NCBI GenBank assembly: GCA_016180645.1
Contig: JACPAV010000038.1
Span: forward strand, 1-36,697
Source: Nitrospirota bacterium
GTDB lineage: Bacteria; JACPQY01
Reading direction: 5' to 3'
Length of the DNA stretch: 36,697 nt
Position 1 is the stretch's first letter, and each line of letters opens with the position of its first letter. The notes beneath the pieces are model-generated. The model searched no databases and was not told where the DNA came from. It saw nothing but the letters and a program-made list of their open reading frames with translations. Position numbers and translations under genes: made by a program. Below, piece by piece: positions 1 to 34,300 of this stretch.

Positions 1-93
1 CCCCAGGAAGGCGGGGGACCAAGAAATCAAGAACTTGACAAAGAATTCCTATAGCTTAACTTTGGCTGAAATCTGTCCAAACGATGGGGGTAA

Positions 94-3000
94 GCTCCGG
101 CCTTTGAAGATGTCTTCAAATACAAACAGCGTACGCACAAGCGAGCGGACCAAGTCGCAAAACTTCATACCATCCAAAGTACCTTTGAGGGAGACAAAGA
201 CGTCAAGTTCGACCAAGAGAACAGCCCGACGGGCAAGGCGATGACAATCCACGGCATGAAGAACGACCCGCGATGGAAAGGTGATACGCAGACCGGCAGG
301 AAGGGAATCACCGATCTCTTGGAAGAGTTGCGCACAGCCAAGGAACTTGATGACTACGGCCTGCGCAGCGGAACGATTGGCGGCTGGGCCGATTTGAGGA
401 AGGTGTTCCTCAGACTGGAAAAGAAAGCAAAGGATGGAAATCGAGCCCTCACGCGAGATGAATTGGAGAACGCCGTCGAAGATGAGAAGCGAGACAATCG
501 CCAAGGTTTCGGGAGCGACGATTTCTTCAAGAAACTCTGCGAACCTCAATATCATCACCTTTGGTCGGCATCAGCGGAGCGCAACGGCATCCGCGACTTC
601 ATTCCCCATTTCGTTGACTACCATGAGTGGATGGAGGATCTGGGCGATCTGGAAATTCGAGATGAGAACGGCAACGTGACCGTCAAGCCGATCAGCTACA
701 CGTTTCCGGGCACGCAGAATCGGCATAAGAAAACGAGCTACCGGCACTTCAATTTCAAAGAGAAGCTCAACCGACAAATGAAGCTGTCTCTTTTCCGAAA
801 GCACACAGGGAACGGGAGCGTCCGCTATGAGTTGCTCAATGATGTTCCGGTCACGCTTTCCGCGCGGCGGCTGAAAAGGGACAAAGTCATGACAGCCGAT
901 GGCACAAGCATGAATGCAGTGTGGTGTCCGCCGCTCGTGCTGGAGGACGAAAAGCCACGCGCTGGAAAGAAGAAAAGCGGCAGATGGCAACCCGGTGATT
1001 TGCCAGTAAGCTTTTTGCTGATGGTCGAAGACGAGCGCAACGGCGAACCGCAACCAATCCACCTGAAAGTCGCCGTTCCCATCGAATGGGGTGAGCAGAA
1101 GAAGCTTCAAAAGGGAACGATCCGCTGGGAAGCTGGTTCATTGCGCGGTTATGCCAAGAAAGACGAACCTGATGCCGATAAACGGCGTCATTTCAAATGG
1201 CCGGTGGACCTGCAAGAGCAGCCCAGCACCAAAGTATCCACATCCGCCAACGACGAGGAAGGGATCACTGCAACGAGGCTGTGGTGCGGCGATGGAAAAA
1301 AGCCGCTCAACGGCTTCCGTGTGAGAACGGAAGAGGGGAGGACTGCCTCAGAGCTTCACATTCTATCCGTGGATTTGGGCATGCGCTTTTCGTCCGCGTT
1401 TGCGCGCCTGCGCGTTCACTGCGACCCCAACGGCGAAGGACGGGTCATTTCGCCCGATGGTTTTGCCACCCCGATTCGTGCCCACGTCTATCGCAAGGGC
1501 ACGCTGCGGTTACAGGGCGAGAACGCCAAGGTCTGGGATCACAAGCGAGATAGCCAGGGCCATTGCGTGAAGGACATAGAGGGCAACCATGTGTATGAGT
1601 TCCAGACGGAAACCTACGGCAATGACGGGCGCGGACGGTTTCCTAAGCTGGAGGAGATTGGGGCGTTCAGAATGCTGGCCTACCGGATCGTGCCGGAGAA
1701 TGCTTTCCCGATTATTGGCGCAGAGAAGATGACGTACCCGGAAATGGGCGACCATCTCATCATGCGGTTGCGCCGGCGCATCAGCCGGATTCGCTCGTTG
1801 TTCAGTCTGCGCTGGCACGTGAGCGGCACGATGGAACGCGACAACTCAACCGGTGTGTACGACAAGCCGCGCATAGAAGCCGACAAGAAGGAGCATTACC
1901 GGGTGGCCGCGGAGACGCTGGGCAAACTCGCGTTCCCGAAGAAACCATGGCCCGAAGGTGAGGAAGAACATCCCGAAAATGCGAAACTGCGTACTGCTTT
2001 GAATAGCGACAAGCAGGCTTGGGATGCCATCAAAGACGACCTTGAGCCTTGCAAGGAACAAGCCGACGAAAAGCTGCGGTGTCAGCGGCTGGACGCGGCC
2101 ATCAGGGGCTGGAATTGGAACGCTCTGGCCGATGAACTCAACCAGCAATTGAATGAGTACTTCAACGGCAAGGATGCAACATCTGCGTTGCTCGTTGGCG
2201 TCGTTGAGCACTGCTTGCCACTGCGAAAGCGCCATTGGCGCTGGGACGGAAGCAAGCACCGACTCTCAATGGAGCACGGAGAGACTGATCCGCAGCACCT
2301 TCCGCTCGTCCAAGGAATGCGCGGGCTGTCCATGCGGCGATTGGAGCAGGTGTTGAACTTGCGGCAGCGTTGTCAGAGCTTCGCCAAGATGGAGAAACGG
2401 TTCGCCGATGGCGACAAGGGGATCAATCCTCCACCGCCCATGAAGCGGGGCGAAGGCGATGACCCTTGCGAGGACTTGCTGGACAAGAGCAATGAACTCC
2501 GTGACCAGCGCGTAAACCAAACTGCGCACATGATCCTAGCGGAAGCTCTGGGCCTCGAACTGAAAAGTCCCGCTGAAGTAGCCGACAAGAAAGGCCGGAA
2601 GAACACAGTGGATTTGCACGGCGAATATAAGCGGATCACTTACCCGAAAACAGCAAGGCAGATGCCACGCTGTTCCATCATTGTGCTGGAGGATTTGACC
2701 CGGTATCGCACGAGCCAAGACCGGACGCGCAGCGAGAACTCGCGCCTTATGCAGTGGGCACACCGTGCCGTTGTGAAAAAGCTGGCTGACATCGCGAAGC
2801 CGTTTGGCATCACGATCATGCTGGTTGATCCAGCCTTCTCGTCACGGTTTTGCTCGCGGACAGGCTTGCCGGGCATTCGTGTGAACTCCGCGTCGCGTGG
2901 TTTTCACGAGAAGATGCCAAACGCGGCGTGGCTCATGCAGAAGAACATGGACGGCGAGCCGTCCGATCTCGCTAGGAAAGTCACGGCCCTGAAAACATTG

Positions 3001-3588
3001 TTTGAGCAGCACCCGAACTACAACGGGCAACTTCTCATCGCGGCGGACGGCGGAAAGGAGTTCCTGCCTGTGCCCGGCACTGCGGCGGAACGGAACACTG
3101 ACAGCGGATTGATGAACGCAGATGAAAACGCTGCCATCAATATCGGCCTGCGTGCCTTGGCGCATCCCAACCGATGGGATATTTTCCCGCGCCTTCGCAC
3201 GGTGGAAATCTCGGAAGAATCAGTACGCATCCGTAACCGACGCGGCTCGTTTGCCAAGTTGGCCGACGATGACCCAGAAAAATTGCTTGGGAAGGCCGAC
3301 ACATCATCGGCAACTGCTGGGAATGGTTCACGCGGAAATAAGGAAGGCGACGAGGAGCAGAACACGGAATCCTCGCAATATCCTGACTTCTTCCTCAACG
3401 CCTGCAATTTTCCCGGGATGCCGAAGAACGAGAGCTACACACCGCATCCCAACGCCGGGCTGTCGTTCAAGGCGTATCGTCGCGGACTGTTCTTGAAACG
3501 AGTCCAACAGCTTTGTGATGAACGCATCGAAGCCATCAACTCCAAGCGCCTTGAAGATTGGCGCAACAAGAAAGACATCCCGTGGTAG
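94..3588 (+). CDS. cas12b: Cas12b (C2c1) type V-B effector nuclease, N-terminus missing
   Basis: RNA-guided DNA endonuclease of type V-B CRISPR systems, which cuts DNA with one RuvC domain using a crRNA:tracrRNA guide. Numbered from the ATG at 241 (1115 codons), all three RuvC motifs are present: VDLGMRF with D378, VLEDLTRY with E817 followed by ENSRLMQWAHR, and NADENAAINIG with D961. The segments FGSDDFFKKL, AFSSRFCSRTGLPGIR and the C-terminal KKDIPW resemble Cas12b, closest from memory to the large Opitutaceae-type proteins. The family normally has a further 200 or more N-terminal residues (WED/REC1). Frame 1 stays open back to 94 and still reads like Cas12b (FEDVFKYKQ), but stops lie at 52, 67 and 91, while frame 2 is open over 2-93. 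So the true start is not visible, and ATG 241 is internal. A frameshift near 94-110 or a truncation at the window edge would explain this. Nothing visible damages the nuclease core. Confidence 0.93.
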   Translation, partial: APAFEDVFKYKQRTHKRADQVAKLHTIQSTFEGDKDVKFDQENSPTGKAMTIHGMKNDPRWKGDTQTGRKGITDLLEELRTAKELDDYGLRSGTIGGWADLRKVFLRLEKKAKDGNRALTRDELENAVEDEKRDNRQGFGSDDFFKKLCEPQYHHLWSASAERNGIRDFIPHFVDYHEWMEDLGDLEIRDENGNVTVKPISYTFPGTQNRHKKTSYRHFNFKEKLNRQMKLSLFRKHTGNGSVRYELLNDVPVTLSARRLKRDKVMTADGTSMNAVWCPPLVLEDEKPRAGKKKSGRWQPGDLPVSFLLMVEDERNGEPQPIHLKVAVPIEWGEQKKLQKGTIRWEAGSLRGYAKKDEPDADKRRHFKWPVDLQEQPSTKVSTSANDEEGITATRLWCGDGKKPLNGFRVRTEEGRTASELHILSVDLGMRFSSAFARLRVHCDPNGEGRVISPDGFATPIRAHVYRKGTLRLQGENAKVWDHKRDSQGHCVKDIEGNHVYEFQTETYGNDGRGRFPKLEEIGAFRMLAYRIVPENAFPIIGAEKMTYPEMGDHLIMRLRRRISRIRSLFSLRWHVSGTMERDNSTGVYDKPRIEADKKEHYRVAAETLGKLAFPKKPWPEGEEEHPENAKLRTALNSDKQAWDAIKDDLEPCKEQADEKLRCQRLDAAIRGWNWNALADELNQQLNEYFNGKDATSALLVGVVEHCLPLRKRHWRWDGSKHRLSMEHGETDPQHLPLVQGMRGLSMRRLEQVLNLRQRCQSFAKMEKRFADGDKGINPPPPMKRGEGDDPCEDLLDKSNELRDQRVNQTAHMILAEALGLELKSPAEVADKKGRKNTVDLHGEYKRITYPKTARQMPRCSIIVLEDLTRYRTSQDRTRSENSRLMQWAHRAVVKKLADIAKPFGITIMLVDPAFSSRFCSRTGLPGIRVNSASRGFHEKMPNAAWLMQKNMDGEPSDLARKVTALKTLFEQHPNYNGQLLIAADGGKEFLPVPGTAAERNTDSGLMNADENAAINIGLRALAHPNRWDIFPRLRTVEISEESVRIRNRRGSFAKLADDDPEKLLGKADTSSATAGNGSRGNKEGDEEQNTESSQYPDFFLNACNFPGMPKNESYTPHPNAGLSFKAYRRGLFLKRVQQLCDERIEAINSKRLEDWRNKKDIPW

Positions 3589-3791
3589 GTCGGTGGGGCA
3601 TTCCGGGCTCGGGCCGCCGGCCATCGCGCCCTTAGTACCATGTTGCGTAATGATTGGAACAGGTTGGGGGTAGGGTGGCCCTCGGCAACATGGTACATAC
3701 GCCCCGCCTTTGTTCGGATTGGCGACTGGAGAGCGGGGCTAGCGCACCGCGACCAAGCTCGGATCTGTTCCATGAATTCGTCAACGCGGTA
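3589..3791. other. Non-coding interval after cas12b with inverted repeat and anti-repeat-like sequence
   Basis: I see no gene here. A perfect 12-bp inverted repeat (3635-3646 with 3685-3696, arms GTACCATGTTGC and GCAACATGGTAC) encloses a smaller AGGG/CCCT hairpin at 3672-3682. Just downstream, 3704-3736 resembles the reverse complement of the CRISPR repeat with gaps: CCGCCT, GTTCG and CTGG blocks in the right order. It could be a diverged tracrRNA, an old inverted repeat copy, or chance in GC-rich DNA. The stronger tracrRNA candidate is downstream of cas2. Confidence 0.4.
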
Positions 3792-4057
3792 CTAGAGTGA
3801 ATTTATGAGCTGCTGGTACTCGTCATGATTGCCGATCCAAAACCAGGTGTATCCACCGGGCACGGGGGCTGCTAACGCGCGGTGGGTGATGCCGACGCGT
3901 GCCCCGACCAAACATGGAGACCGACCTTCTTGAAATGAAGGCTCGGGTGATGCTGGTTGCTCTTCAACAGACGGTAGTTCTTGATCGCGAGACGTTGAAC
4001 CCGCCGCGGCAATTTTCGATAGGCTTCCCAAAATTCCGGGCCGGCATGGCTGATCAA
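3792..4057 (-). pseudogene. RelE/ParE-like toxin, probably frameshifted
   Basis: The first part, from a TTG start at 4057, reads FWEAYRKLPRRVQRLAIKNYRLLKSNQHHPSLHFKKV. This is typical of small RelE/ParE-superfamily toxins, which usually cleave mRNA at the ribosome or poison gyrase. The expected C-terminal half (ARVGITHRAL, then TWFWIGNHDEYQQLI) continues in a different frame and ends at 3792. The switch falls at a run of four C on the plus strand (3902-3905); one extra base there would restore a toxin of about 88 residues. So this is either a real loss-of-function mutation or a homopolymer sequencing error. The start overlaps the stop of the upstream antitoxin as TTGA, a normal antitoxin-toxin arrangement. 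Confidence 0.75.
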
Positions 4058-4272
4058 GGAAGCGGGCGAGTACGCCCCGCGCGGAAATCCTCAATGGCTT
4101 TCTTGGCCAATCTCTCCAGCGGGCCTCCGGACCTCGCGTCCTTCTCGATTTGGCTGTCCCAAAGCCGGGCCTCGTACTCCTCGAGCCACCTGGCCATGTG
4201 CCGCACCTTGTCGGGCGACAGCCGGGCGATTTCCTTTTGGATACGCGCGATATCGCTTCCACCCTTGCTCAT
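4054..4272 (-). CDS. Antitoxin partner of the RelE-like toxin
   Basis: A 72-residue, highly charged helical protein (SDIARIQKEIARLSPDKVRHMARWLEEYEARLWDSQIEKD in part). It resembles the short antitoxins that precede RelE/ParE-like toxins and carry an LSP...WL..YE..LWD..IE.D pattern. It would neutralise the toxin by binding it and probably repress its own promoter. The stop overlaps the toxin start. A strong promoter on the reverse strand (TTGATA, 17-base spacer, TAAAAT) ends exactly 6 bases before the ATG, so the mRNA is predicted to be leaderless. The pair interrupts the CRISPR locus between cas12b and cas4-cas1, and points against it. The assignment rests on size, pattern and context; no catalytic signature is expected. 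Confidence 0.72.
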   Translation of the reverse strand: MSKGGSDIARIQKEIARLSPDKVRHMARWLEEYEARLWDSQIEKDARSGGPLERLAKKAIEDFRAGRTRPLP

Positions 4273-4278
4273 GGCTCC

Positions 4279-4307
4279 ATTTTACGAACCGCGACTGCCC
4301 TTATCAA
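4279..4307 (-). promoter_or_regulatory. Promoter of the RelE-like TA pair, leaderless type
   Basis: On the reverse strand TTGATA (4302-4307) is followed by a 17-base spacer and TAAAAT (4279-4284). Six bases (4273-4278) then separate it from the ATG, so initiation would fall at the A of the start codon. Confidence 0.65.
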
Positions 4308-4315
4308 GCACGGGC

Positions 4316-4344
4316 TTGACATCGTGAATCCCTTCATGGATACC
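4316..4344 (+). promoter_or_regulatory. Possible promoter for cas4-cas1 and cas2
   Basis: A consensus -35 TTGACA (4316-4321) is followed after 17 bases by a weak -10 GATACC (4339-4344). It would be divergent to the TA promoter and give a 5' leader of about 155 bases containing the 16-bp inverted repeat at 4378-4419. The -10 is poor, so this is only a candidate. Confidence 0.3.
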
Positions 4345-4377
4345 CCGCCGTCTCTACCCCTCTCGCCCCGCCCCGCT

Positions 4378-4419
4378 TGGTCGTGGGCCTTGCATGGCTT
4401 CGCGCAAGGCCCACGACCA
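4378..4419. repeat. Perfect 16-bp inverted repeat upstream of cas4-cas1
   Basis: Arms 4378-4393 (TGGTCGTGGGCCTTGC) and 4404-4419 pair perfectly around a 10-base loop. No T-run follows on either strand, so it is not a classic intrinsic terminator. It may be a palindromic REP-like unit or a hairpin in the 5' leader of the adaptation genes. Confidence 0.7.
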
Positions 4420-4505
4420 GGCAGTCGCGGGACGGCCAAGCCATCCTGGCGCCGCCCCGGCTTCCGGATTCCCGCCGGGAGCGGACAGAGCCATCCGCCC
4501 TTGTC

Positions 4506-6203
4506 ATGAGCGACGCCCCCGTTCAAACCCAAGCCGGACTTGAAGCGCAACCGCCGATGCCGGTGCGGCGGCTCCACAACTTCCTCTACTGCCCGCGCCT
4601 CTTCTACTACCAGTGGGTCGAAAATATCTTTCAGGAAAACGCGGATACGGTGGAAGGATCGCACGCGCATCGGAACGTGGACCGGCCCTCCCGCATCGAA
4701 GACCCGACGAAGCTCGATCTGCCGGAAGGGACGCAGATTCGTTCTCTTCGGCTTGCGAGTGAGAAGCTGGGACTCGTCGGTGTGGTCGATCTCATCGAAG
4801 GCGGTCCCGAAGGGGCCGTGTTGATCGATTACAAGAAAGGCTCGGCCCGTCGGGACGAAGCCGGAGAGCGCGTGGCGAAAGAGCCGGATGCGATGCAGCT
4901 CGTGGCTCAGTCTATGCTCTTGCGCGAACACGCCATCAGCGTCAAGGAGGCGTTCGTCTACTATGCCGCCGACAAGCGGAGGGTGCCTGTAGACGTATCA
5001 GAGGAACGGACCCGTGAATGCCTCGAAAAACTCGATCAGGCCAAAGCCCTCGCCGCCGAAGGCCGCTGCCCACCGCCGCTCCAGGATGATCCACGGTGCC
5101 TCTATTGCTCGGCCTATCCGATCTGTCTCCCCAATGAATCCGAGTTCTGGCGCGAACCGAAAGGTGAACCGATTACCGTCAAGCGGCCTCCGAGGCCGGA
5201 GGACGACGACGGCGAAATCCTCATCGTCCAGAGGCCCGGCGCCCAAATTGGCTTCAGGGGAGGGCAGATCGTGGTGGTCCTCAAAGGCGATACGATACGA
5301 GCGTTGCCATCCATGCAGGTGCGCGCAGTCTACGTCTACGGCGCGGTGCAAATTACAACGCAAGCGACTCATGCTTTCTTGGAACAAGGGGTCTCGGTGT
5401 CCTATTTTTCACCGTCCGGGCGTTTCCTCGGCATGCTGAACGGACTCCCCGCCTCCGGCGTGGACACGCGACGCGGTCAGTACCGTCTGTTCGATCAACC
5501 CACCACCTGCCTCGCGGTCGCGAAGGAGATGATTCGAGCCAAAATCCACAATCAACGCGTGATGCTCATGCGCAACGGCGAGCCTCCGGAGAAAGCGGTC
5601 TCGGAAATGATGCAGCTTCGGGATCAAACCTCGGAAGCGCATACCATGACCGAACTGCTTGGCCTGGAAGGGATGGCGGCGGCGCTCTACTTCGGGAACT
5701 TCGCTGGGATGCTGAAATCTTCCGACGGCGCCGGAGTCGATTTCTCATCGCGGAACCGTCGCCCTCCACGCGACCCCGTGAACGCGCTTCTTTCGATGGG
5801 ATACAGCGTCCTTTGCAAGGAGCTGGCGGGAATTTGCCACAGCGTGGGGCTCGATCCCTTCCTGGGGGTGATGCACCAGCCTCGTTACGGTCGGCCCGCC
5901 CTCGCGCTCGATCTCATGGAAGAGTTCCGGCCCCTGATCGTGGATAGCGTGGCGGTCAGCCTGATCAATCGCGGGGAAATCGCGAAGGATGACTTCATTT
6001 CCGGTTCATCCGGGGTGTTCATGAACGAAGACGGGCGCAAGGCTTTCTGGGAGGCGTATGGTCGGCGGATGGACACGGAAGTTTCCCATCCGCAGTTTGG
6101 CTACAGCATGCCGTACCGGCGTATGTTGGAGGTTCAGGCGAGACAGGTATGGCGGTTTGTTCGCGGAGAGGCATCCGGATATGTCGGATTCACGACCCGG
6201 TGA
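4506..6203 (+). CDS. cas4-cas1: Cas4-Cas1 fusion, spacer acquisition integrase/nuclease
   Basis: A 565-residue fusion of the PAM-selecting Cas4 nuclease and the Cas1 integrase, as typically found in type V-B and a few type I systems. The Cas4 part (about 18-215) has C29 in FLYCPRLFYY, a RecB-type core (GVVDLIEG followed by LIDYKKG), a QLVAQ helix, and the C-terminal cysteines C198, C201 and C207 that complete the Fe-S site. The Cas1 part (about 235-565) has the metal-binding residues E388 (LGLEGMAA), H457 (GVMHQPRYGR) and D469 (ALDLMEEF). Both halves look intact. I chose the ATG at 4506 because the frame upstream of it runs through the 16-bp inverted repeat and does not look coding. The stop is three bases before the cas2 start, so the two are surely cotranscribed. 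Confidence 0.96.
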   Translation: MSDAPVQTQAGLEAQPPMPVRRLHNFLYCPRLFYYQWVENIFQENADTVEGSHAHRNVDRPSRIEDPTKLDLPEGTQIRSLRLASEKLGLVGVVDLIEGGPEGAVLIDYKKGSARRDEAGERVAKEPDAMQLVAQSMLLREHAISVKEAFVYYAADKRRVPVDVSEERTRECLEKLDQAKALAAEGRCPPPLQDDPRCLYCSAYPICLPNESEFWREPKGEPITVKRPPRPEDDDGEILIVQRPGAQIGFRGGQIVVVLKGDTIRALPSMQVRAVYVYGAVQITTQATHAFLEQGVSVSYFSPSGRFLGMLNGLPASGVDTRRGQYRLFDQPTTCLAVAKEMIRAKIHNQRVMLMRNGEPPEKAVSEMMQLRDQTSEAHTMTELLGLEGMAAALYFGNFAGMLKSSDGAGVDFSSRNRRPPRDPVNALLSMGYSVLCKELAGICHSVGLDPFLGVMHQPRYGRPALALDLMEEFRPLIVDSVAVSLINRGEIAKDDFISGSSGVFMNEDGRKAFWEAYGRRMDTEVSHPQFGYSMPYRRMLEVQARQVWRFVRGEASGYVGFTTR

Positions 6204-6206
6204 CCG

Positions 6207-6497
6207 ATGAAACGAACACGATTTCTGGTTTGCTATGACATTTCCAACCCCAAACGTTTGCGCCGTGTGGCCAAAGTTCTTGAAGGCTACGGTCGTCGGC
6301 TTCAGTTCTCGGTGTTCGAATGTCCGCTGGGCAGTCTGCGTTTTTCCAAGTTGAAGTCCGATCTACAAGGCGTGCTGAATCACGACCAGGACCAAGTGAT
6401 GTTCGTATCGCTGGGTGGGGCCGAGGCAGATGCCGGTCTTGTGATCGAAACGATGGGCCAGCCTTATGTGGCTCACACCCGGATAACCGTGGTCTGA
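6207..6497 (+). CDS. cas2: Cas2, CRISPR adaptation protein
   Basis: A 96-residue Cas2 of normal size. It forms a homodimer that bridges two Cas1 dimers in the spacer-integration complex. The N-terminal strand FLVCYDISNPKRLRRVAKVLEGYG carries the conserved aspartate D11 and the usual ferredoxin-like opening, followed by LQFSVFECPL. It starts three bases after the cas4-cas1 stop and is clearly in the same operon. Its TGA stop at 6495-6497 is immediately followed by the -35 element of the predicted tracrRNA promoter, leaving no room for a terminator between them. Confidence 0.95.
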   Translation: MKRTRFLVCYDISNPKRLRRVAKVLEGYGRRLQFSVFECPLGSLRFSKLKSDLQGVLNHDQDQVMFVSLGGAEADAGLVIETMGQPYVAHTRITVV

Positions 6498-6526
6498 TTG
6501 ACTCATCATGAAGGTGTTGATATCTT
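6498..6526 (+). promoter_or_regulatory. Promoter of the predicted tracrRNA
   Basis: TTGACT (6498-6503), a 17-base spacer and TATCTT (6521-6526) give a good sigma70-type promoter starting the base after the cas2 stop. Initiation would fall near 6533, at the start of the first tracrRNA hairpin. Confidence 0.65.
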
Positions 6527-6531
6527 TCATA

Positions 6532-6600
6532 TTGGCTAAGGCCAACGACCACAACCCTTCCGCCATTGGGGTTGCAGGCTCTTTGAAATCGCGAGTGCGG
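6532..6600 (+). ncRNA. Predicted type V-B tracrRNA
   Basis: Three elements appear in the order I recall for Cas12b tracrRNAs. (1) A 5' hairpin: TTGGC (6532-6536), loop TAAG, GCCAA (6541-6545). (2) A hairpin with stem CAACCC (6552-6557) and GGGTTG (6569-6574), whose loop contains CCGCC (6560-6564), complementary to the last five repeat bases GGCGG. (3) A 16-base anti-repeat at 6577-6592 that pairs with repeat positions 13-28 by 13 Watson-Crick pairs, two G-U pairs and one mismatch. It lies between cas2 and the array on the same strand, with its own promoter. The 3' end is not defined by a visible terminator and may extend past 6600. It is not confirmed by expression data. Confidence 0.8.
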
Positions 6601-6767
6601 AATTGATCGGCAATCAGCCTTGAGACGCTCGAAACACATATCTGGTTGAGAACGCATGATTATTCGAGTTCTGCTGTGGTGACTCGAAGCGGGAAGATCG
6701 GGCGATTCGAGAATGCTCGCAACCCGGTGCCGATCCTGCTGTCTTGCGGGCCGTTTCGAGACGCGCA
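6601..6767 (+). promoter_or_regulatory. CRISPR leader with five TTCGAG motifs
   Basis: A non-coding stretch between the tracrRNA and the first repeat. The hexamer TTCGAG occurs at 6663, 6706 and 6755, and its reverse complement CTCGAA at 6628 and 6683. The 6663/6683 pair forms an inverted repeat with a 14-base gap. I see no convincing -35/-10 for the array, so the pre-crRNA may start from the upstream promoter or from an unrecognised one. The orientation fits a leader, because the degenerate repeat lies at the far end. Confidence 0.6.
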
Positions 6768-6927
6768 GCCGACTCACCAGCGATTTCGAACAGCTTGAGG
6801 CGGAGGACGAAGGGAAAAACGCATACCCACCCCAGGGGCCGACTCACCAGCGATTTCGAACAGCTTGAGGCGGCTTTCGCTTTCGCAATCGCGGCGCGGG
6901 CGGCGGGCCGACTCACCAGCGATTTCG
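6768..6927 (+). CRISPR. Type V-B mini CRISPR array: 2 full repeats, 2 spacers, truncated third repeat
   Basis: Two identical 36-base repeats lie at 6768-6803 and 6838-6873, beginning GCCGACTCACCAGCGATTTC and ending AGCTTGAGGCGG. The spacers are 6804-6837 (34 bases) and 6874-6906 (33 bases). The third repeat starts at 6907, is identical for 21 bases, then runs directly into the hairpin element at 6927. The 36-base length and the 5' segment resemble the Alicyclobacillus type V-B repeat as I recall it, read in the same direction, so crRNAs should be transcribed rightwards like the cas genes. The tracrRNA complementarity supports the same strand. Confidence 0.93.
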
Positions 6928-7000
6928 GGAAATCTGGGGACAGGATACTCATTTCCGACTCGTTCACCTGAAGAATTGGTACACTGTCCCCAGATTTCCC
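6927..7000. mobile_element. GGGGACAG-type hairpin element, copy 1, interrupting the third CRISPR repeat
   Basis: 17-base perfect inverted ends (6927-6943, GGGAAATCTGGGGACAG, and 6984-7000) enclose a 40-base centre. It resembles the GGGGACAG-type palindromic units often linked to REP-associated (Y1) tyrosine transposases; I infer this from memory of the motif. No transposase is present. Its left end coincides with the breakpoint in CRISPR repeat 3. Confidence 0.75.
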
Positions 7001-7005
7001 ACGGG

Positions 7006-7041
7006 TTGACGGTTGATAACACATTGTAATAGAATGTTATC
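7006..7041 (+). promoter_or_regulatory. Promoter and operator palindrome of the vapBC-like cassette
   Basis: TTGACG (7006-7011), an 18-base spacer and TAGAAT (7030-7035) form the promoter, with 6 bases before the ATG at 7042. A palindrome, GATAACA (7015-7021) and TGTTATC (7035-7041), spans the -10 and start region, as expected for autorepression by a ribbon-helix-helix antitoxin. No Shine-Dalgarno is visible. Confidence 0.7.
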
Positions 7042-7266
7042 ATGATTCGAACACAGGTCAGTTTGGGGAGGGGCGACTACGAGGCGGCCAAGACAGAGGC
7101 CAGGCGGCTGGGTATCCCCTTCGCGGAGCTGGTCCGGCGGGCCCTGCGAGGCATCTTGCCGGTCCGGTCGAAAAAGCCGTGGATGAAATATGCCGGCATG
7201 GTGAGATCCGGAGACGCCGCCTCAAGCCGGACAATCGACGAAGTGGTCTACGGCCATGAGCGATGA
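7042..7266 (+). CDS. vapB: VapB-like ribbon-helix-helix antitoxin
   Basis: A 74-residue protein with a short N-terminal strand (MIRTQVSLGRGDYEAAKTEARRLGIPFAELVRRALR). This fits a ribbon-helix-helix (CopG/MetJ-like) DNA-binding domain over residues 1-40, followed by a toxin-binding tail (WMKYAGMVRSGDAASSRTIDEVVYG). It would bind and inhibit the PIN toxin encoded next and repress the shared promoter through the palindrome at 7015-7041. Its end overlaps the toxin start by 11 bases, typical of translational coupling. The ATG is placed exactly where transcription should begin, so the mRNA is probably leaderless. The family is clear by pattern; the exact vapB subfamily is not. Confidence 0.85.
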   Translation: MIRTQVSLGRGDYEAAKTEARRLGIPFAELVRRALRGILPVRSKKPWMKYAGMVRSGDAASSRTIDEVVYGHER

Positions 7267-7663
7267 ATGCTATGTGGACACCTCCGCATTCATCGCCTTC
7301 CTCGACGGTTCGGACTCCTTCCACTCGTTGTTCCAGAGGCTGTTTGCCGATCCGCCCCGTCTCATAACGTCTCCCCTCGTGATCGCCGAGGGCCACGGCT
7401 GGTTCCTCCGGCGGTACGATGCCCCGCGCGCCTTGCAATTTCTCCGCTTCATCGAAGCGCTGGCGACTCTCCAGATCATGGCCGTCGGCCCGGAGGAGAT
7501 TCGCGCCGGCGAAAAGTTCCTTCGGAAATTCATGGATCAGAGAATTACACTGACCGACGCCGTGGGACTGCTGATCATGGAAAAACGCCGCCACAAGATC
7601 TGCTGGAGTTCGGACGCGCACCTCGGTCTCACCGGCGCCCGCCTGGTCATCCACTCATCGTAA
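7256..7663 (+). CDS. vapC: VapC-like PIN-domain ribonuclease toxin
   Basis: A 135-residue PIN-domain toxin. PIN toxins are Mg-dependent endoribonucleases, often cutting tRNA or rRNA. The acidic active-site residues are all present: D8 (YVDTSAF), E45 (VIAEGHGW), D101 (ITLTDAVGLL) and D120 (WSSDAHLGL). Length and motif spacing are normal, so the toxin should be active when free of its antitoxin. The start lies inside the end of the antitoxin gene. The pair is flanked by two related hairpin elements in the same orientation and sits directly beside the broken end of the CRISPR array, so it may have arrived as a cassette. Confidence 0.93.
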   Translation: MSDECYVDTSAFIAFLDGSDSFHSLFQRLFADPPRLITSPLVIAEGHGWFLRRYDAPRALQFLRFIEALATLQIMAVGPEEIRAGEKFLRKFMDQRITLTDAVGLLIMEKRRHKICWSSDAHLGLTGARLVIHSS

Positions 7664-7673
7664 ATCCATGCGA

Positions 7674-7763
7674 GGAAATCCGGGGACCGCCTACTCATTT
7701 CCAAATCGTTCACCTGAAGAATGGGTACACTGTCCCTGGATTTTCCTGTCCCTGGATTTCCCC
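7674..7763. mobile_element. GGGGACAG-type hairpin element, copy 2, degenerate
   Basis: An imperfect direct copy of the element at 6927-7000, sharing TACTCATTTCC, CGTTCACCTGAAGAAT and TACACTGTCCC. Its right end is duplicated (7730-7746 and 7747-7763, each TGTCCCTGGATTTTCC-like). It bounds the toxin-antitoxin cassette on the right and ends eight bases before the apt stop codon. Confidence 0.7.
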
Positions 7764-12191: not shown

Positions 12192-13964
12192 CTATTTTCT
12201 TTTGAATGCTTTTTCCAGTGCGTCGAACGTCCATTCGAGGAGAACCGGGCGTCCGTGTGGGCAGGTGTAGGCCGACGGGGAGGAGTAGGTTTGCGCGACG
12301 AGCGATTCCAGCTCGGCCGGGTTCAGCTCATCTCCGGCTTTTACGGCGGCGCGGCACGCGATGAGATCCAGGAGGTGCTCGCGGGGATCTCCCGTCTTGT
12401 CGCCCGGCGCATCGCTCCACTCGCGAAGGAGATCGCGCAGAAAGGATTCCGCGTGGGGGACGTTCAATCCGGAAGGAATCGACTTGATGGCAAAAGCCGA
12501 GCCCATGGGCTCGATGTCCATTCCGGCGCCGTCCAGCATCGGGATGAGTTCGTGGAGGATCACGGCTTCCTGGGGCGCGGCCTTGAAAATCTCCGGCATC
12601 AGGAGCGCCTGATGAGTCACGCCTCCGTTCTGAAGCTGTCCCTTCAGCTTCTCGAAAAGGACGCGCTCGTGCGCCGTATGTTGGTCGATCACCAGGAGGC
12701 CCTGTGGACCTTCGCAGAGGATGAACGTGTTGCGCACTTGCCCCAGAACCACGGGGAGGAGGGCAGACTCCATGCCCTGAGGGGAGGTGGGCGAAACTCG
12801 ATCGGTGGATCCCATCGACGTGGCGTCCGACGCCACCGGTGCATTCGCGTCGGCTGCGGGACCTGCGAAAGTGGGGGCCTGCGGAACCGAGGCGTGGTGA
12901 AGGAGCGGCAAGGAGGGTGCGGGGGGCGCGGGTGTCACCTCCGCTCCTGGGGCGAGAGGGGAAGGGGAGAAGAGCCGCGGTCCCAGCGCTTCGAGGGTGG
13001 CGGTGCGGACGACGCGATAGATTTCCGAAGTGTCTCTGAATCGAACTTCGATCTTCTGCGGGTGCACGTTCACATCCACCAGTTTGGGATCGATGTCGAG
13101 CATGAGTACGCCGATAGGGAATCGCCCCGGCGGAATCGCCTGGGAAAAGGCGTCGCAAACGGCGTGCACGAGAACCCGGTCGCGGAAGTATCGCCCGTTG
13201 ACATAAAGATATAGGCCCGCGGAATTCGGCCAGTGAAGGAGCGGACTTCCGGCGAAGCCCCCAACCTTCAAGGGCCCTTCCTCGTGATCCAGCTTGAGGA
13301 GCTTGTCTTCCACTCGCTCTCCGAGCACGTCCGCCGCGCGCCTCGCCTGGGAGGCCCGGGGAAAATCGAGCAGGGAGCGGTCTTGATGGTTGACGCGAAA
13401 CTCCACGTCGGGCCGGGCCAGCGCCAGACGGGAGACGATCTGGGCGCAGGCCCCAAGCTCGGAGCGTTCCGATTTCATGAATTTGCGGCGGGCGGGCGTG
13501 TTGAAAAAGAGATCAGCCGCGGTGATCCAGGTTCCTTGCGGCATGGCGGTAGGTTCTTCCGCGACGACTTTCGGCCCTTCCACCGAGAATCGGAAGCCTT
13601 CGTTGGCGTCGGCTGGCCGTGTGCGAAGGGTGAGGCGGGATACAGCGGCGATGCTGGGAAGCGCTTCTCCGCGGAAGCCGAGCGTGCGCACCGCGAAGAG
13701 ATCATCTTCGCTGGAGATCTTACTCGTGGCATGCCTCTCGATGGCCAGCTTGGCGTCGGCGGGAGTCATGCCGATTCCGTCGTCACGGACCTCGATGGTT
13801 CGGAGGCCGCCGGCTTCGAGTCGGACGTCGATCGATTTCGCCATGGCGTCGAGCGCATTTTCGACCAATTCCTTCACGACCGATGCGGGCCGCTCCACCA
13901 CTTCGCCCGCGGCGATCTTCGCGATGAGCTCTTCCGGCAGCCGCCTGATCTTTCCCTCGGTCAA
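12192..13964 (-). CDS. mutL: DNA mismatch repair protein MutL
   Basis: Couples mismatch recognition by MutS to strand removal. The 590-residue protein has the GHKL ATPase domain: IAAGEVVERPASVVKELVENALDA, VRDDGIGM and GFRGEALPSI. A proline- and alanine-rich linker occupies about residues 340-400. The C-terminal domain has DQHTAHERVLFE, ACRAAVK and CPHGRP. These three C-terminal motifs mark the endonuclease-active type of MutL, the kind found where MutH is absent. The ATG overlaps the hisS stop by 4 bases. Confidence 0.96.
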   Translation of the reverse strand: MTEGKIRRLPEELIAKIAAGEVVERPASVVKELVENALDAMAKSIDVRLEAGGLRTIEVRDDGIGMTPADAKLAIERHATSKISSEDDLFAVRTLGFRGEALPSIAAVSRLTLRTRPADANEGFRFSVEGPKVVAEEPTAMPQGTWITAADLFFNTPARRKFMKSERSELGACAQIVSRLALARPDVEFRVNHQDRSLLDFPRASQARRAADVLGERVEDKLLKLDHEEGPLKVGGFAGSPLLHWPNSAGLYLYVNGRYFRDRVLVHAVCDAFSQAIPPGRFPIGVLMLDIDPKLVDVNVHPQKIEVRFRDTSEIYRVVRTATLEALGPRLFSPSPLAPGAEVTPAPPAPSLPLLHHASVPQAPTFAGPAADANAPVASDATSMGSTDRVSPTSPQGMESALLPVVLGQVRNTFILCEGPQGLLVIDQHTAHERVLFEKLKGQLQNGGVTHQALLMPEIFKAAPQEAVILHELIPMLDGAGMDIEPMGSAFAIKSIPSGLNVPHAESFLRDLLREWSDAPGDKTGDPREHLLDLIACRAAVKAGDELNPAELESLVAQTYSSPSAYTCPHGRPVLLEWTFDALEKAFKRK

Positions 13965-28373: not shown

Positions 28374-31300
28374 CTATGGAAGGTTCTGAACTTGCACAGG
28401 GGTGTGGCGATCCACGGTGGTGCCGTCGCCGAGTTGGCCGTAGAAATTGTAACCCCAGCATTTCACCGTGCCGTCGGAAAGAAGGGAACAGGTGTGTTCG
28501 TAGCCATTTGCGACGGTGACACCGCCCGACAGGCCGCTCACGGCCACGGGGGTCGTCCTATCCGCCGTCGTCCCGTCGCCGAGTTGGCCGTAGAAATTGC
28601 GCCCCCAGCATTTCATCGTGCCATCGGAAAGAAGGGAACACGTGTATTCGCGGCCCGCCGCTACGGCGACACCGCCCGACAAGCCGCTCACGGCCACGGG
28701 GGTCGTCTTGTTCACCAGCAGCGTCCCGTCCCCAAGCTGACCATATTGATTATTCCCCCAGCATTTGACCGTGCCATCGGATAGAAGGGAACAGGTGTGA
28801 TCATAGCCCACCACGATGGCCACACCGCCGAACAGTGAAGACACGGCGATGGGCGTTAGGCGATTAGCGGTCGTCCCGTCCCCAAGTTGACCGCTACTGT
28901 TGAGCCCCCAGCATTTGACCGTGCCATCGGATAGAAGGGAACAGGTGTGCCAGTAGCCCACCGCGAGGGCCACGCCGCCGGACAATGAAGACACGGTGAT
29001 GGGCGTTAGGCGATCGGCGGTCGTCCCGTCCCCGAGCTGACCGGAGGGGTTCCACCCCCAACATTTCACCGTGCCATCGGAAAGCAGGGAACAAGTGTGA
29101 TAGTAGCCCCCCGCGACGGCCACGGCACCCGACAGGCCGATCACGGCCGCGGGGGTCGTCTTATTCACCGTCGTCCCGTCCCCGAGCTGGCCGTAGAAAT
29201 TGTATCCCCAGCAATCCACCGTGCCGTTGGAAAGAAGGGAACAGGTTTGATTTCCGCCCCCCGCAACGGCCACGCTGCCCGACAGGCTGCTGACGGCCAC
29301 GGGGGTCGTCTTATTCGCCGTTGTACCATCCCCAAGCTGCCCAGACTGATTGTTCCCCCAGCATTTGACGGTGCCGTTGGAAAGAAGGGAACAGGTGTGA
29401 TAGCCGAAATGGTTCGTTAGACCTTCGCGCCACGGGCGGGCGGGGGCGCCGGAGGCGGAACCTTCGTGGTGGAGGCGGGGGAGCTTGACGCCGAGGGGAC
29501 CGGTGAGACTCGTGACGGCCGTGGGTGTTGTCTTGTACGTCGTTGTTCCGTCTCCGAGTTGGCCGTACCCATTGTTGCCCCAGCATTTCAGGGTACCGTC
29601 TGAGAGGAGAGAACAAGAGTGCTGGTAGCCCCCCGCGACGGAAACGGCATTCGACAAGCTGGAAACGGCGATGGGCGTTAGGCGTTGGGTGGTCGTCCCG
29701 TCCCCAAGCCCGCCGAAGCCGTTGCTCCCCCAGCATTTCACCGATCCGTCCGAGAGAAGAACACAGGTGTGATAGAGCCCCCCCGCGATGGCCACGGCAT
29801 TCGACAAGGTGGAAACGGCGATGGGCGATAGGCGATCGACGGAGGTGCCATCCCCAAGTTGGCCGAAACCGTTGTACCCCCAGCATTTCACCGACCCGTC
29901 TGAGAGAAGAGAACAGGTGTGATATTCGCCTGCCGCGACGGCCACAGCTCCAGAGAGTGCGCTCACCGCCACGGGCGTTGACTTTTTCGCCGTCGTCCCG
30001 TCCCCAAGCCCGCCGTAGATATTGTTTCCCCAGCATTTCACCGTGCCGTCCGAGAGAAGGGAACAGCTGTGATAGGAGCCCCCCGCGATGGCCACGGTGT
30101 TCGAGAGATAGGAGCCCCCCGCGATGGCCACGGTGTTCGAGAGAGAACTCACGGCCACGGGGGTCGTCTTGTCCACCGTCGTCCCGTCCCCCAGTTGACC
30201 AAACATGTTGGATCCCCAGCATTCGGCCGTGCCATCCGAGAGAAGGGAACAAGTGTGAAAGTAGCCCTCTGAGAGGGCCACCGCACCCGAAAGGGAAGAG
30301 ACGGCAACAGGCGCTAGGCGGTTGACGTTGGTTCCGTCCCCAAGTTGGCCGGAGTTATTGTGCCCCCAACATCTTACCGTTCCGTCCGAGAGAAGGGCAC
30401 AGGTGTGTCTGCCCAGATGATTCGTCACGGCTTGGATGACACCAGCCACTGGGGGTGAAGAAGTCGTGGCTGTTTTTTCGACGGTGTTGGTATCGGTGTT
30501 GCCCGCCTCATCCTCCGCACGGGCGACGAAGTAGTAGGCGGTGGTGGCGTTGAGCGCGGTGACGCTGTAGGAGGTGGCGCTGGCGGAGGTCGTGTAGGTG
30601 ACCGTGAAGCTCGTCTGGCAGGTCCCCGCCGTTGTGCTTTGGCAAATTTTGTAGATCAAGGAAGACGCGGGACTCACGGCGTCGGACGCGGCAGACCAGG
30701 AAAGGTCGATCTGGGAGGAGGAGACGGCGGTGGCTGAAGCAAGGCCGGCAAACGTCGGCGCGGTGTTGTCGAACGTAAAAGAAGCATTGGCGGTCGGACT
30801 TTGGGCGTTGGCGGCGTTATCGGTCGCCTTCGACTGAACCGTATACGCCGATCCACTCGCCCACGCCGGCAAGCCGCTCGACTTGCTCCAAGAAGTCGTG
30901 CCGGTTGCCGCGAGCCACGCGACGCCCGCGCCCCAGGCGCTGCCGTCCCAGTACTGGCTGTCCGAATTTCTCTGAATCGTAATCTCCACGGTCTGAACTC
31001 CGCTTCCCGTATCGCTTGCCGATCCGGTAACGGAGGAGAGTGCAGACAGTTTGGCGCCGTTGGCGGGCGCCGTAATCGATGATGTCGGCAAGCTGTAATC
31101 AACCATCACGCTGTTGGAGGCCGCCCACGCAGAAGCGTTTCCCGCATTGTCCAGCGCCCGGACGCAGTTGAAATACGAGGCGCCAAGCGCCAGGCTCAAG
31201 GCGCCGGTCGATTTGGAAGTGACGTTGCCCAGGTTGGCGGTCGCCAGCGTATCGCCCGCGCATGAGCCGGCCGTGCTGATGTTGTAGTCGTAGGACGCTA

Positions 31301-34300
31301 TCCCGTTGGCGTCGGAAAAGCCGCTCCAGTTCGCGGCCATCGTGGTGTTCGAGATTTGATAGGCCACGTCCGCACCTGTCCCGTCGTTCACCGCGCCACC
31401 CGTCGGAAGGGTGGTGTCCAGTGTGATGGTCGCGCTTACCGAGGGGCCTGTGTTGACGTTGCCGCCTGCATCCTTCACCCACGCGTAGACCGTGTGCGAC
31501 CCTTCGACGGCGCTCAGCGTGAACGTGGTGGGCTCCGTTCCCGCGAAACACGCATGGGCCGCGGCCGGAGCGGTCGACTGCGTCTCAGATAGACACCACC
31601 CGACGGCCTGGGCGTCATTCCCGATCGTTGCGTTGACCGGATTGTTGTTCGTGTAGCCCGCCGAAGCCGGGGTCGGGTCGGAGATCGACAGAGTCGGATT
31701 GGGCGGCGGCGTCTTGTCGTTGATCTTGATCGTAACGGAACTCGTGTTCCCGGCTTGGTCCGTCTGTGTGACGTAAATCTGGTCCGAGGCGTCGCCTTGG
31801 TTGTCGCCGATGGCGTAGGCGGCGAAGCTGCCATCGCCCAGTGCTGAGGACTGACCGATGAGTACCGTGAGAAGACCGTCGGAGTAGACCTTGACGGTCG
31901 CGGAGCCTTCCACGGCGCCCACGGCGCCGCTGAGAGTGTCGTTCGTCCCGGACGGATTGGCCGTGACGGCGAGATTGGCTCCCACAGGGGTGGTCGGAGC
32001 GATGGTGTCCAGTGTGATGGAGGCGCTGATGGCCGGGCCCGGGTTCACATTTCCCGCCGCGTCGCGCACCCAGGCATAAACCGTGTGAGGCCCTTCGACG
32101 GCGCTCAGGGTGAACGTGGTGGGTTCCGTCCCCGCAAGGCAGCCGGCCGACTCGGCCGGCTGGGCGGACTGGCTCTCGGACAGGCACCAATGGGAGACGC
32201 CTGCGTCGTTTCCGACCGTCGCATTCACGGGATTGTTGTTCGTGTACCCCGAAGTGGTCGGCGAAGGATCGGCGAGGCTGAGCGTCGGATTGGGCGGCGC
32301 GGCCGTATCGAGAGCGATGGAAGCTGATACGGCGGGACCGCCGTTGATGTTGCCCGCCGCGTCCTTGATCCAAGCGTAGACGGTGTGCGATGTGTCGCCG
32401 GCGCTCAGGGTGAAGGTGGTTGGCTTCGGCGAGACGAAGCAGGCGTCGGCCTCAACCGGAGCGGTGGTCTGAGTTTCGGAGAGGCACCACTTTGAGGCTC
32501 CTGTGTCGCTCGTTATGGACGTGTTGACCAGTGTCGAATTGGTTGATGCCCCGCTTCCGGACGTGGCGTCCGACAACGCCAAGGCTGGGTTGGGCGGCGC
32601 GGTGGTATCCAGCGTGATGCTTGCGCTGACGGCCGGACCCGCATTGATGTTTCCGGCTGCATCCTTGATCCACACATATGCTGTCTTGCCCCCATCTCCC
32701 GCGATCAGCGTCAATGTGGTCGGTTCAGGCGAAACGAAGCACGACGACAGTTCACCGGGGGAGGCGGACTGCGTTTCGGACAGGCACCACGTCGATGCTC
32801 CGGTATCTCCCGTGATGGAGACGTTGACGGTCGCGGCGTTCGTGGCTGTGGCGCTGCCGGAAGTTTGATCGGACAGGCCGAGTGTTGGATTCGGAGGTGC
32901 TGCTGTGTCCAGCGTGATGCTTGCGCTGACGGCCGGACCCGCATTGATATTCCCGGCAACATCCTTGATCCAGATATAGACTGTGTGCGATCCGTCGCCG
33001 GCGCTCAGGGTGAACGTTGTGGGCCTGGGAGAAGTGAAACAGGATGACAACTCGGCTGGCGATGCGGATTGGGTTTCCGACAGGCACCAGAAGGCGGCTT
33101 CCGCATCCCCACCGATGGAGGCGTTGACGGATGTCGAGTTGGTCGTCCCGGTGCTGGACGAGGTTTGATCCGCGACCGATATTGTCGGATTGGGGGGGGC
33201 CACGGAATCCAGCGTGATGGAAGCGGAAACCGCCGGTCCGGGGTTCACGTTCCCCGCGGAGTTCTTGGTCCAGACGTAAAGGCTGTGTGAGCCTTCGACC
33301 GCGGTCAGGACAAACGTTGAGGGTTCCGGACTCGTGAAGCACGGATCGGAGGACGCGGGCTGCGAGGACTGCGTTTCTGAGAGGCACCAGGCCGTGGCAT
33401 CGGCATCATTGCCGATGGTGGCGTTGACCGTTGTCGAGTTGGTGTAGCCCGTGCTGCCGCTTGTCTGGTCCGCCGGCGTGAGCGTCGGATTGGTCGACCC
33501 CGATGTGTTGTTTGTCTTGCTGATGGAGGCCGATGCGTTGCCTGCGGCATCGGTGGCGGTGATGTAGACGGTCGTGTAGAGGTTATCGCCAATGGTCAGA
33601 GCACCGAACGAACCGTTTGCCCCCGCCGCGACCGAAACAACCAGGTTGGTCAACCCCGAATCGCTGTAGATCTTCACGGTTGCAGAGACCTCCACGGCGC
33701 CGAGCGACCCTTGAACGCTGTCCGGGGTTCCCGGAGGATTCTGATTCACGGTGATATTGCCCGATACCGGTGCGGCGGGCGCCGTGGTGTCGACCATCCA
33801 CACGTAGGAAGCGGGAGTGGCGTCGACGTTGTTCGCCTGATCCTTGGCGCGGACGTTGATCGTGTGGGCTCCCGAAGAGAGCGGTCCGGCGATCAAGTGA
33901 GGCGAAGTGCACGAGGCGAAGGCGGCGGCATCCAGGGAGCACTCGAAAGTCGCGCTTGCATCGTTGCTGGTGAAGGACGCGGACAAGCTCGTGGAATTGG
34001 TCGGCGTCACGGAGGGCGCGGTCGATGCGAGGGTGGTGTCCGGCGGCCCTGTATCGAGGACGATGGTATCGCTGACCTGGCTGCTTAAGTTGCCGGCCGC
34101 GTCTCTGAACCTGGCATAGACCGTTTTCGTGCCGTCGCCGGCCGTGAGCGTCCATGGAAAAGACGTGGCGTACGGTTGGTAGGCGCCGTAGGTGAGATTG
34201 TCATTGGAGAAAGCCATTTCCGTGGCTCCCGTGGCCGAAAGGGTCAGCGTAACGGCGGTCGTCGAAGTGAAGGTGGCTCCGGCGCTGATGATGACCGAGG

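Follow-up and report, generated by a model that had tools for sequence, protein, structure and literature searches.

The CRISPR-Cas locus and its candidate tracrRNA gene

We analysed a 36,697-nt stretch of DNA (the window), which is the complete contig C38 of the 65-contig draft genome of a Nitrospirota bacterium. It carries a type V-B clustered regularly interspaced short palindromic repeats (CRISPR) locus with genes for Cas12b, a Cas4-Cas1 fusion and Cas2, followed by the remnant of a CRISPR array. Our subject is a candidate gene for a trans-activating CRISPR RNA (tracrRNA) in the 270-nt gap between cas2 (6207-6497, plus strand; PF09827, 3.1e-20) and the array, an order that is the same in related loci. 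A preliminary description, made by eye, had proposed here a tracrRNA gene for Cas12b that has a promoter of its own, and all the features that it named are located in this gap.

The promoter, TTGACT-17-TATCTT (6498-6526, plus strand), begins at the base directly 3′ of the cas2 stop codon (6495-6497). It is of the sigma-70 type and is the sole promoter-like match in positions 6400-6800, where 0.2 are expected. Transcription is predicted to start at about position 6533, at a 5′ hairpin with the sequence TTGGC-TAAG-GCCAA (6532-6536 with 6541-6545, plus strand). The hairpin is followed by a 7-bp stem that includes one U·G pair, formed by CAACCCT (6552-6558) and GGGGTTG (6568-6574) on the same strand and closed by the loop T-CCGCC-ATT. 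The preliminary description had placed promoter, hairpin and stem-loop correctly.

Two segments of the RNA are complementary to the CRISPR repeat. The loop segment CCGCC (6560-6564, plus strand) is the exact complement of repeat positions 32-36 (GGCGG), while the main anti-repeat segment (6575-6597, plus strand) begins at the base after the stem. Its first part, 6575-6592, pairs with repeat positions 13-30 at 17 of 18 bases, with one C·C mismatch and two G·U pairs, and beyond this main helix 6595-6597 pairs with repeat positions 8-10. The anti-repeat had earlier been given as 16 bases opposite repeat positions 13-28 with one mismatch; the pairing and the mismatch stand, but its length was slightly underestimated.

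These features place the RNA in a known kind. In a panel of 15 Cas12b orthologs, the genes follow the order cas12b-cas1-cas2-tracrRNA-array and the tracrRNA contains a bulge able to pair with the repeat's 3′ end (PMC11423069), and in other Cas12b loci small-RNA sequencing showed the tracrRNA to lie between the nuclease gene and the array (PMC6342934). The published order, bulge pairing and tracrRNA position together indicate that the window's tracrRNA belongs to the same kind. An Rfam search returned a tRNA as its sole match at gathering scores. Type II Cas9 tracrRNAs are likewise trans-encoded, carry an anti-repeat and are presumably processed by ribonuclease III (RNase III), but the effector in the window is unrelated to Cas9.

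Conservation and covariation among related loci

Motif scanning across 84,980 species genomes yielded 80 Cas12b loci (given here as L numbers). We found the tracrRNA element by inspection in 25 loci whose repeats end in GGCGG, and a covariance model added L028 and L043. The element is present in at least these 27 related loci, in nearly all of them in the interval from cas2 to the array, and forms a 28-locus family with the window. We counted pairs in the ungapped core (26 sequences), as a whole-RNA MAFFT alignment misplaced the stem's 3′ strand. In the stem, 93.5% of cells are paired compared to 62.5% in shuffles, and 52 cells carry double-sided changes compared to 14.4 in shuffles; neither value was reached in 500 shuffles, and slid controls were 36-61% paired.

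The covariance model R2, which was built without the window, matches positions 6530-6598 with 77.9 bits (E=7e-16 when searching the window), and this is its only match in the 4.7-Mb genome (E=9e-14). The anti-repeats of 26 loci pair with their own repeats at a mean of −33.9 kcal/mol, compared to −20.5 kcal/mol when repeats are permuted (z=−12.4; 0 of 10,000 permutations were as good). A promoter of the form TTGAC/TTGCA-16-18-TAnnnT lies upstream of the hairpin in most related loci, the hairpin itself has a comparable counterpart in most of them, and the −10 box ends 31-37 nt upstream of CCGCC in 19 of 26 loci; the mean promoter score across loci was reached by 0 of 200 shuffle sets. A covariance search and conservation of both pairing segments in relatives had been proposed beforehand as checks. 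The search recovered the element uniquely, and the segments are conserved across the 27 loci, together with stem covariation and cognate pairing.

We also considered that the element has no function as an RNA and is antisense to the repeat either by chance or as a decayed, degenerate repeat on the opposite strand. Raw pairing energy lends this some support: the window is G+C-rich, and three other plus-strand sites match or better the repeat:target duplex energy at the tracrRNA (about −37 kcal/mol). The arrangement of the parts is much harder to obtain by chance. The combined geometry of CCGCC, stem and anti-repeat scores 29 of 30. The best of 5000 dinucleotide shuffles of the gap scores 25, and the best other site on the two strands of the window scores 24, so that no better anti-repeat, which would have cast doubt on the preliminary description, turned up elsewhere in the locus. 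Compensatory changes in the stem, the conserved promoter, the 28-locus family and cognate matching all contradict a chance copy, and we give that explanation almost no credence.

Several observations weigh against the tracrRNA assignment. Besides the rival duplex-energy sites, the RNA alone folds no better than its shuffles (z −0.26). No intrinsic terminator was found at the gene. Finally, the clade member L024, which has an array and a GGCGG repeat, shows no recognisable tracrRNA in the stretch examined. A raw duplex-energy scan was dropped as proof of a unique anti-repeat because other sites score equally high, and single-strand folding energy was uninformative; the case is built on geometry and comparison, without energy. 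Because of the covariation, the conserved position, the match by a model that left the window out and the cognate-specific pairing, we consider it very probable that positions 6532 to about 6600 encode a type V-B (Cas12b) tracrRNA that is transcribed from a promoter of its own directly downstream of cas2. The same four lines strongly support the gene, promoter and two-segment pairing that had been read by eye.

We infer from sequence that the tracrRNA is transcribed, processed by RNase III and bound by Cas12b; an RNase III gene (rnc) is present in the genome. If the system were intact, the RNA would form its 5′ hairpin and the stem, with CCGCC exposed in the loop. Positions 13-30 of the repeat in the precursor CRISPR RNA (pre-crRNA) would then pair with the anti-repeat, and RNase III would probably cut the duplex. 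The last five repeat bases, which adjoin the spacer, would pair with CCGCC and lock the crRNA into the Cas12b scaffold.

Individual related loci depart from the common arrangement. In L026 (Lentisphaeria; 13221-13485), three tandem copies of the tracrRNA unit precede the array, and L027 (2862-3002) carries two adjacent, non-identical tracrRNA-like units whose stems differ and which are each complementary to the repeat. About 30 extra bases seem to interrupt the anti-repeat of L018 (14995-15067), like a bulge inserted into the repeat:anti-repeat helix. A weak tracrRNA-like match in L012 (413-477; E=0.05) lies upstream of cas12b rather than after cas2. The one other genome of the same order or phylum that was searched lacks Cas12b, and a search of viral contigs gave no near relative and one Bacilli-type match.

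Cas12b clades and the shape of the guide scaffold

A tree of 74 Cas12b proteins, made by a quick method, separates cleanly by the 3′ end of the repeat into groups with GGCGG (28 rows, the window included), GCAC (11) and GACAC (15). The repeat-end label changes twice on the tree, which is the minimum possible. The loop segment of the tracrRNA tracks the clade, with CCGCC/GGCGG, GTGCC/GGCAC and GTGTC/GACAC as the respective loop and repeat ends. An exact five-base complement of the repeat end was not found in L042, L046, L062 and L064 of the GCAC clade. The clade-matched loop segments and repeat ends support two-segment pairing across subtype V-B.

The clades also differ in what stands behind the loop segment. 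In most GGCGG-clade loci, CCGCC is separated from the closing strand of the stem by 3 nt. In the other two clades, the distance is 19-29 nt and an extra hairpin lies between loop segment and closing strand in all 23 loci measured. L018 and L054 are exceptions to the GGCGG-clade spacing, where the program picked a helix other than the homologous, imperfect one.

Compared to studied systems, the window RNA shares the general plan and differs in these details. RNAs of the AacCas12b/BhCas12b type (Bacilli; compared via L045, L047 and L048) also precede the array and consist, in this order, of a 5′ hairpin, a stem with a loop-side segment that pairs with the repeat's 3′ end, and an anti-repeat. Unlike the window RNA, they have an extra inner hairpin and 22-29 nt between loop segment and closing strand, instead of 3 nt, and their loop segment and repeat end are GTGCC/GGCAC instead of CCGCC/GGCGG. 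Systems of the NiCas12b/PhyCas12b type (PMC11423069; via L068, L079 and L084) have the same order of genes and likewise a bulge that could pair with the repeat's 3′ end, but their repeats end in GACAC, their tracrRNAs contain GTGTC and their inner hairpin is conserved (CCCCTTCaATGGGC). The window tracrRNA lacks the inner hairpin of the Bacilli/Planctomycetes-type V-B scaffold. Of the 15 panel repeats, 13 end in CAC, and the panel proteins span 1064-1529 amino acids (aa) (PMC11423069); in the window's clade, most intact Cas12b proteins have lengths of about 1,300-1,750 aa.

Judged from these comparisons, the GGCGG-clade scaffold is a compact form of the known Cas12b scaffold. We hold it to be an evenly balanced question whether the window RNA represents a third, compact and uncharacterised class of Cas12b guide scaffold, which would be confined to one clade (mostly Verrucomicrobiota and Lentisphaerota, with proteins of up to ~1,700 aa) and would combine GGCGG repeats with a minimal loop without an inner hairpin. 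If so, its guides and those of the Bacilli enzymes that have been studied would not be able to replace one another. We found no description of the compact loop with GGCGG/CCGCC pairing, or of Verrucomicrobiota Cas12b guides, in the literature outside supplements, and we do not claim newness. Through the comparison, an observation made by eye becomes an RNA family that can be tested, with a consensus scaffold, a covariance model and a clade-fixed rule, namely that the loop segment is the complement of the repeat's 3′ end. With these, guide RNAs could be written down and tried for many Cas12b enzymes of uncultured Verrucomicrobiota.

State of cas12b and the CRISPR array

In the genome as assembled, an insertion sequence divides cas12b into two pieces. 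The C-terminal part of the gene, in which RuvC I-III are present, lies at positions 94-3588 (plus strand; NCBIfam Cas12b, 1.2e-118, profile positions 341-1218 of 1253), and its N-terminal ~400 codons lie at the end of contig C41 (G000:C41:35533-36552); tblastn with Cas12b of L008 and L010 matches both pieces. A short, 1115-aa form of Cas12b in the window was ruled out by the N-terminal part on C41. The right end of the insertion sequence occupies positions 1-98 (plus strand), inside cas12b, with a 3-bp target duplication, GGC, at 99-101.

Contigs C14 and C6 carry at their ends a sequence 100% identical to window positions 1-93, and the opposite end of the insertion sequence (C41:36551-36650) recurs at C41, C30 and C23. 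The genome has at least three copies of this insertion sequence; all of them fall at contig ends, of which they explain six. The target duplications pair the ends as C41/C38 (GGC), C30/C14 (GAG) and C23/C6 (GAA), where C41/C38 is independently backed by cas12b homology and the other two pairs were picked by their matching duplications. Apart from the insertion, the only break seen, the halves of cas12b are open and in register, which suggests that the insertion is recent.

The array is a remnant as well. Two full repeats (6768-6803 and 6838-6873, plus strand) are followed by a third that is truncated after 21 nt (6907-6927, plus strand), and the genome holds no further copies of the repeat. 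The third repeat is cut, and the array ended, by an insert at 6928-7746, in which two 73-nt near-palindromic repeats (6928-7000 and 7674-7746; GGAAATCTGGGGACAG...CTGTCCCCAGATTTCC) surround a VapBC-like pair (PIN, 7256-7663). A third, lone copy of the 73-nt repeat lies at C35:28981-29054. A search for spacer targets in phages gave none that was convincing.

The split nuclease gene and the array of two full repeats and a remnant make current function in this strain doubtful. The break in cas12b could itself be deceptive, either as an assembly artefact or as an insertion carried by part of the population, in which case the tracrRNA would serve an active nuclease. The fragmented draft and the otherwise sound reading frame of the two halves are compatible with this. 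However, contig ends that coincide with insertion sequence ends, in at least three copies with matching 3-bp duplications, are as in a true insertion, and the array is truncated too. We regard an unbroken cas12b as unlikely.

A different function was also considered. Regulatory guide roles are known in other class 2 systems, and the tracrRNA could now be mainly regulatory, acting as a tracr-L-like or crRNA-like guide with which Cas12b represses its own or another gene, rather than serving interference. The two or three tracrRNA copies in L027 and L026 would fit such a role. The anti-repeats nevertheless match the repeat of their cognate array, as expected for processing of array crRNAs, and a Cas12b-dependent role is improbable now that Cas12b is split here; we judge a mainly regulatory role to be very unlikely.

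Because cas12b is split by the insertion sequence and the array is truncated, the tracrRNA in this genome is probably an orphan or near-orphan. The preliminary description had gone further in calling it the functional guide partner of the window's Cas12b, and this is not supported by the genome in its assembled form. The RNA gene is intact and very probably real, and the system to which it belonged appears to have been disabled recently, so that the locus seems to capture a CRISPR-Cas system shortly after that event, with an intact tracrRNA.

The cas4-cas1 fusion (4377-6203, plus strand; NF049935, 6e-190; Pfam Cas1, 3e-88, and Cas4, 3.5e-15) is given as its listed open reading frame, and its true start may be further in. 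About 0.8 kb (3589-4376) separates it from cas12b, while in L007, L008 and L010 the two genes abut. Visual inspection suggests a minus-strand toxin-antitoxin-like remnant in this interval, but its open reading frame at 3792-4262 has no Pfam match. In the close relative L007 (3783-8908), cas12b is also broken, apparently by a frameshift (frames of 585 and 1165 aa). Elsewhere in the window, a 2763-aa open reading frame on the minus strand (28374-36665) contains many RCC1 repeats and bacterial immunoglobulin-like domains and probably encodes a large secreted or surface protein.
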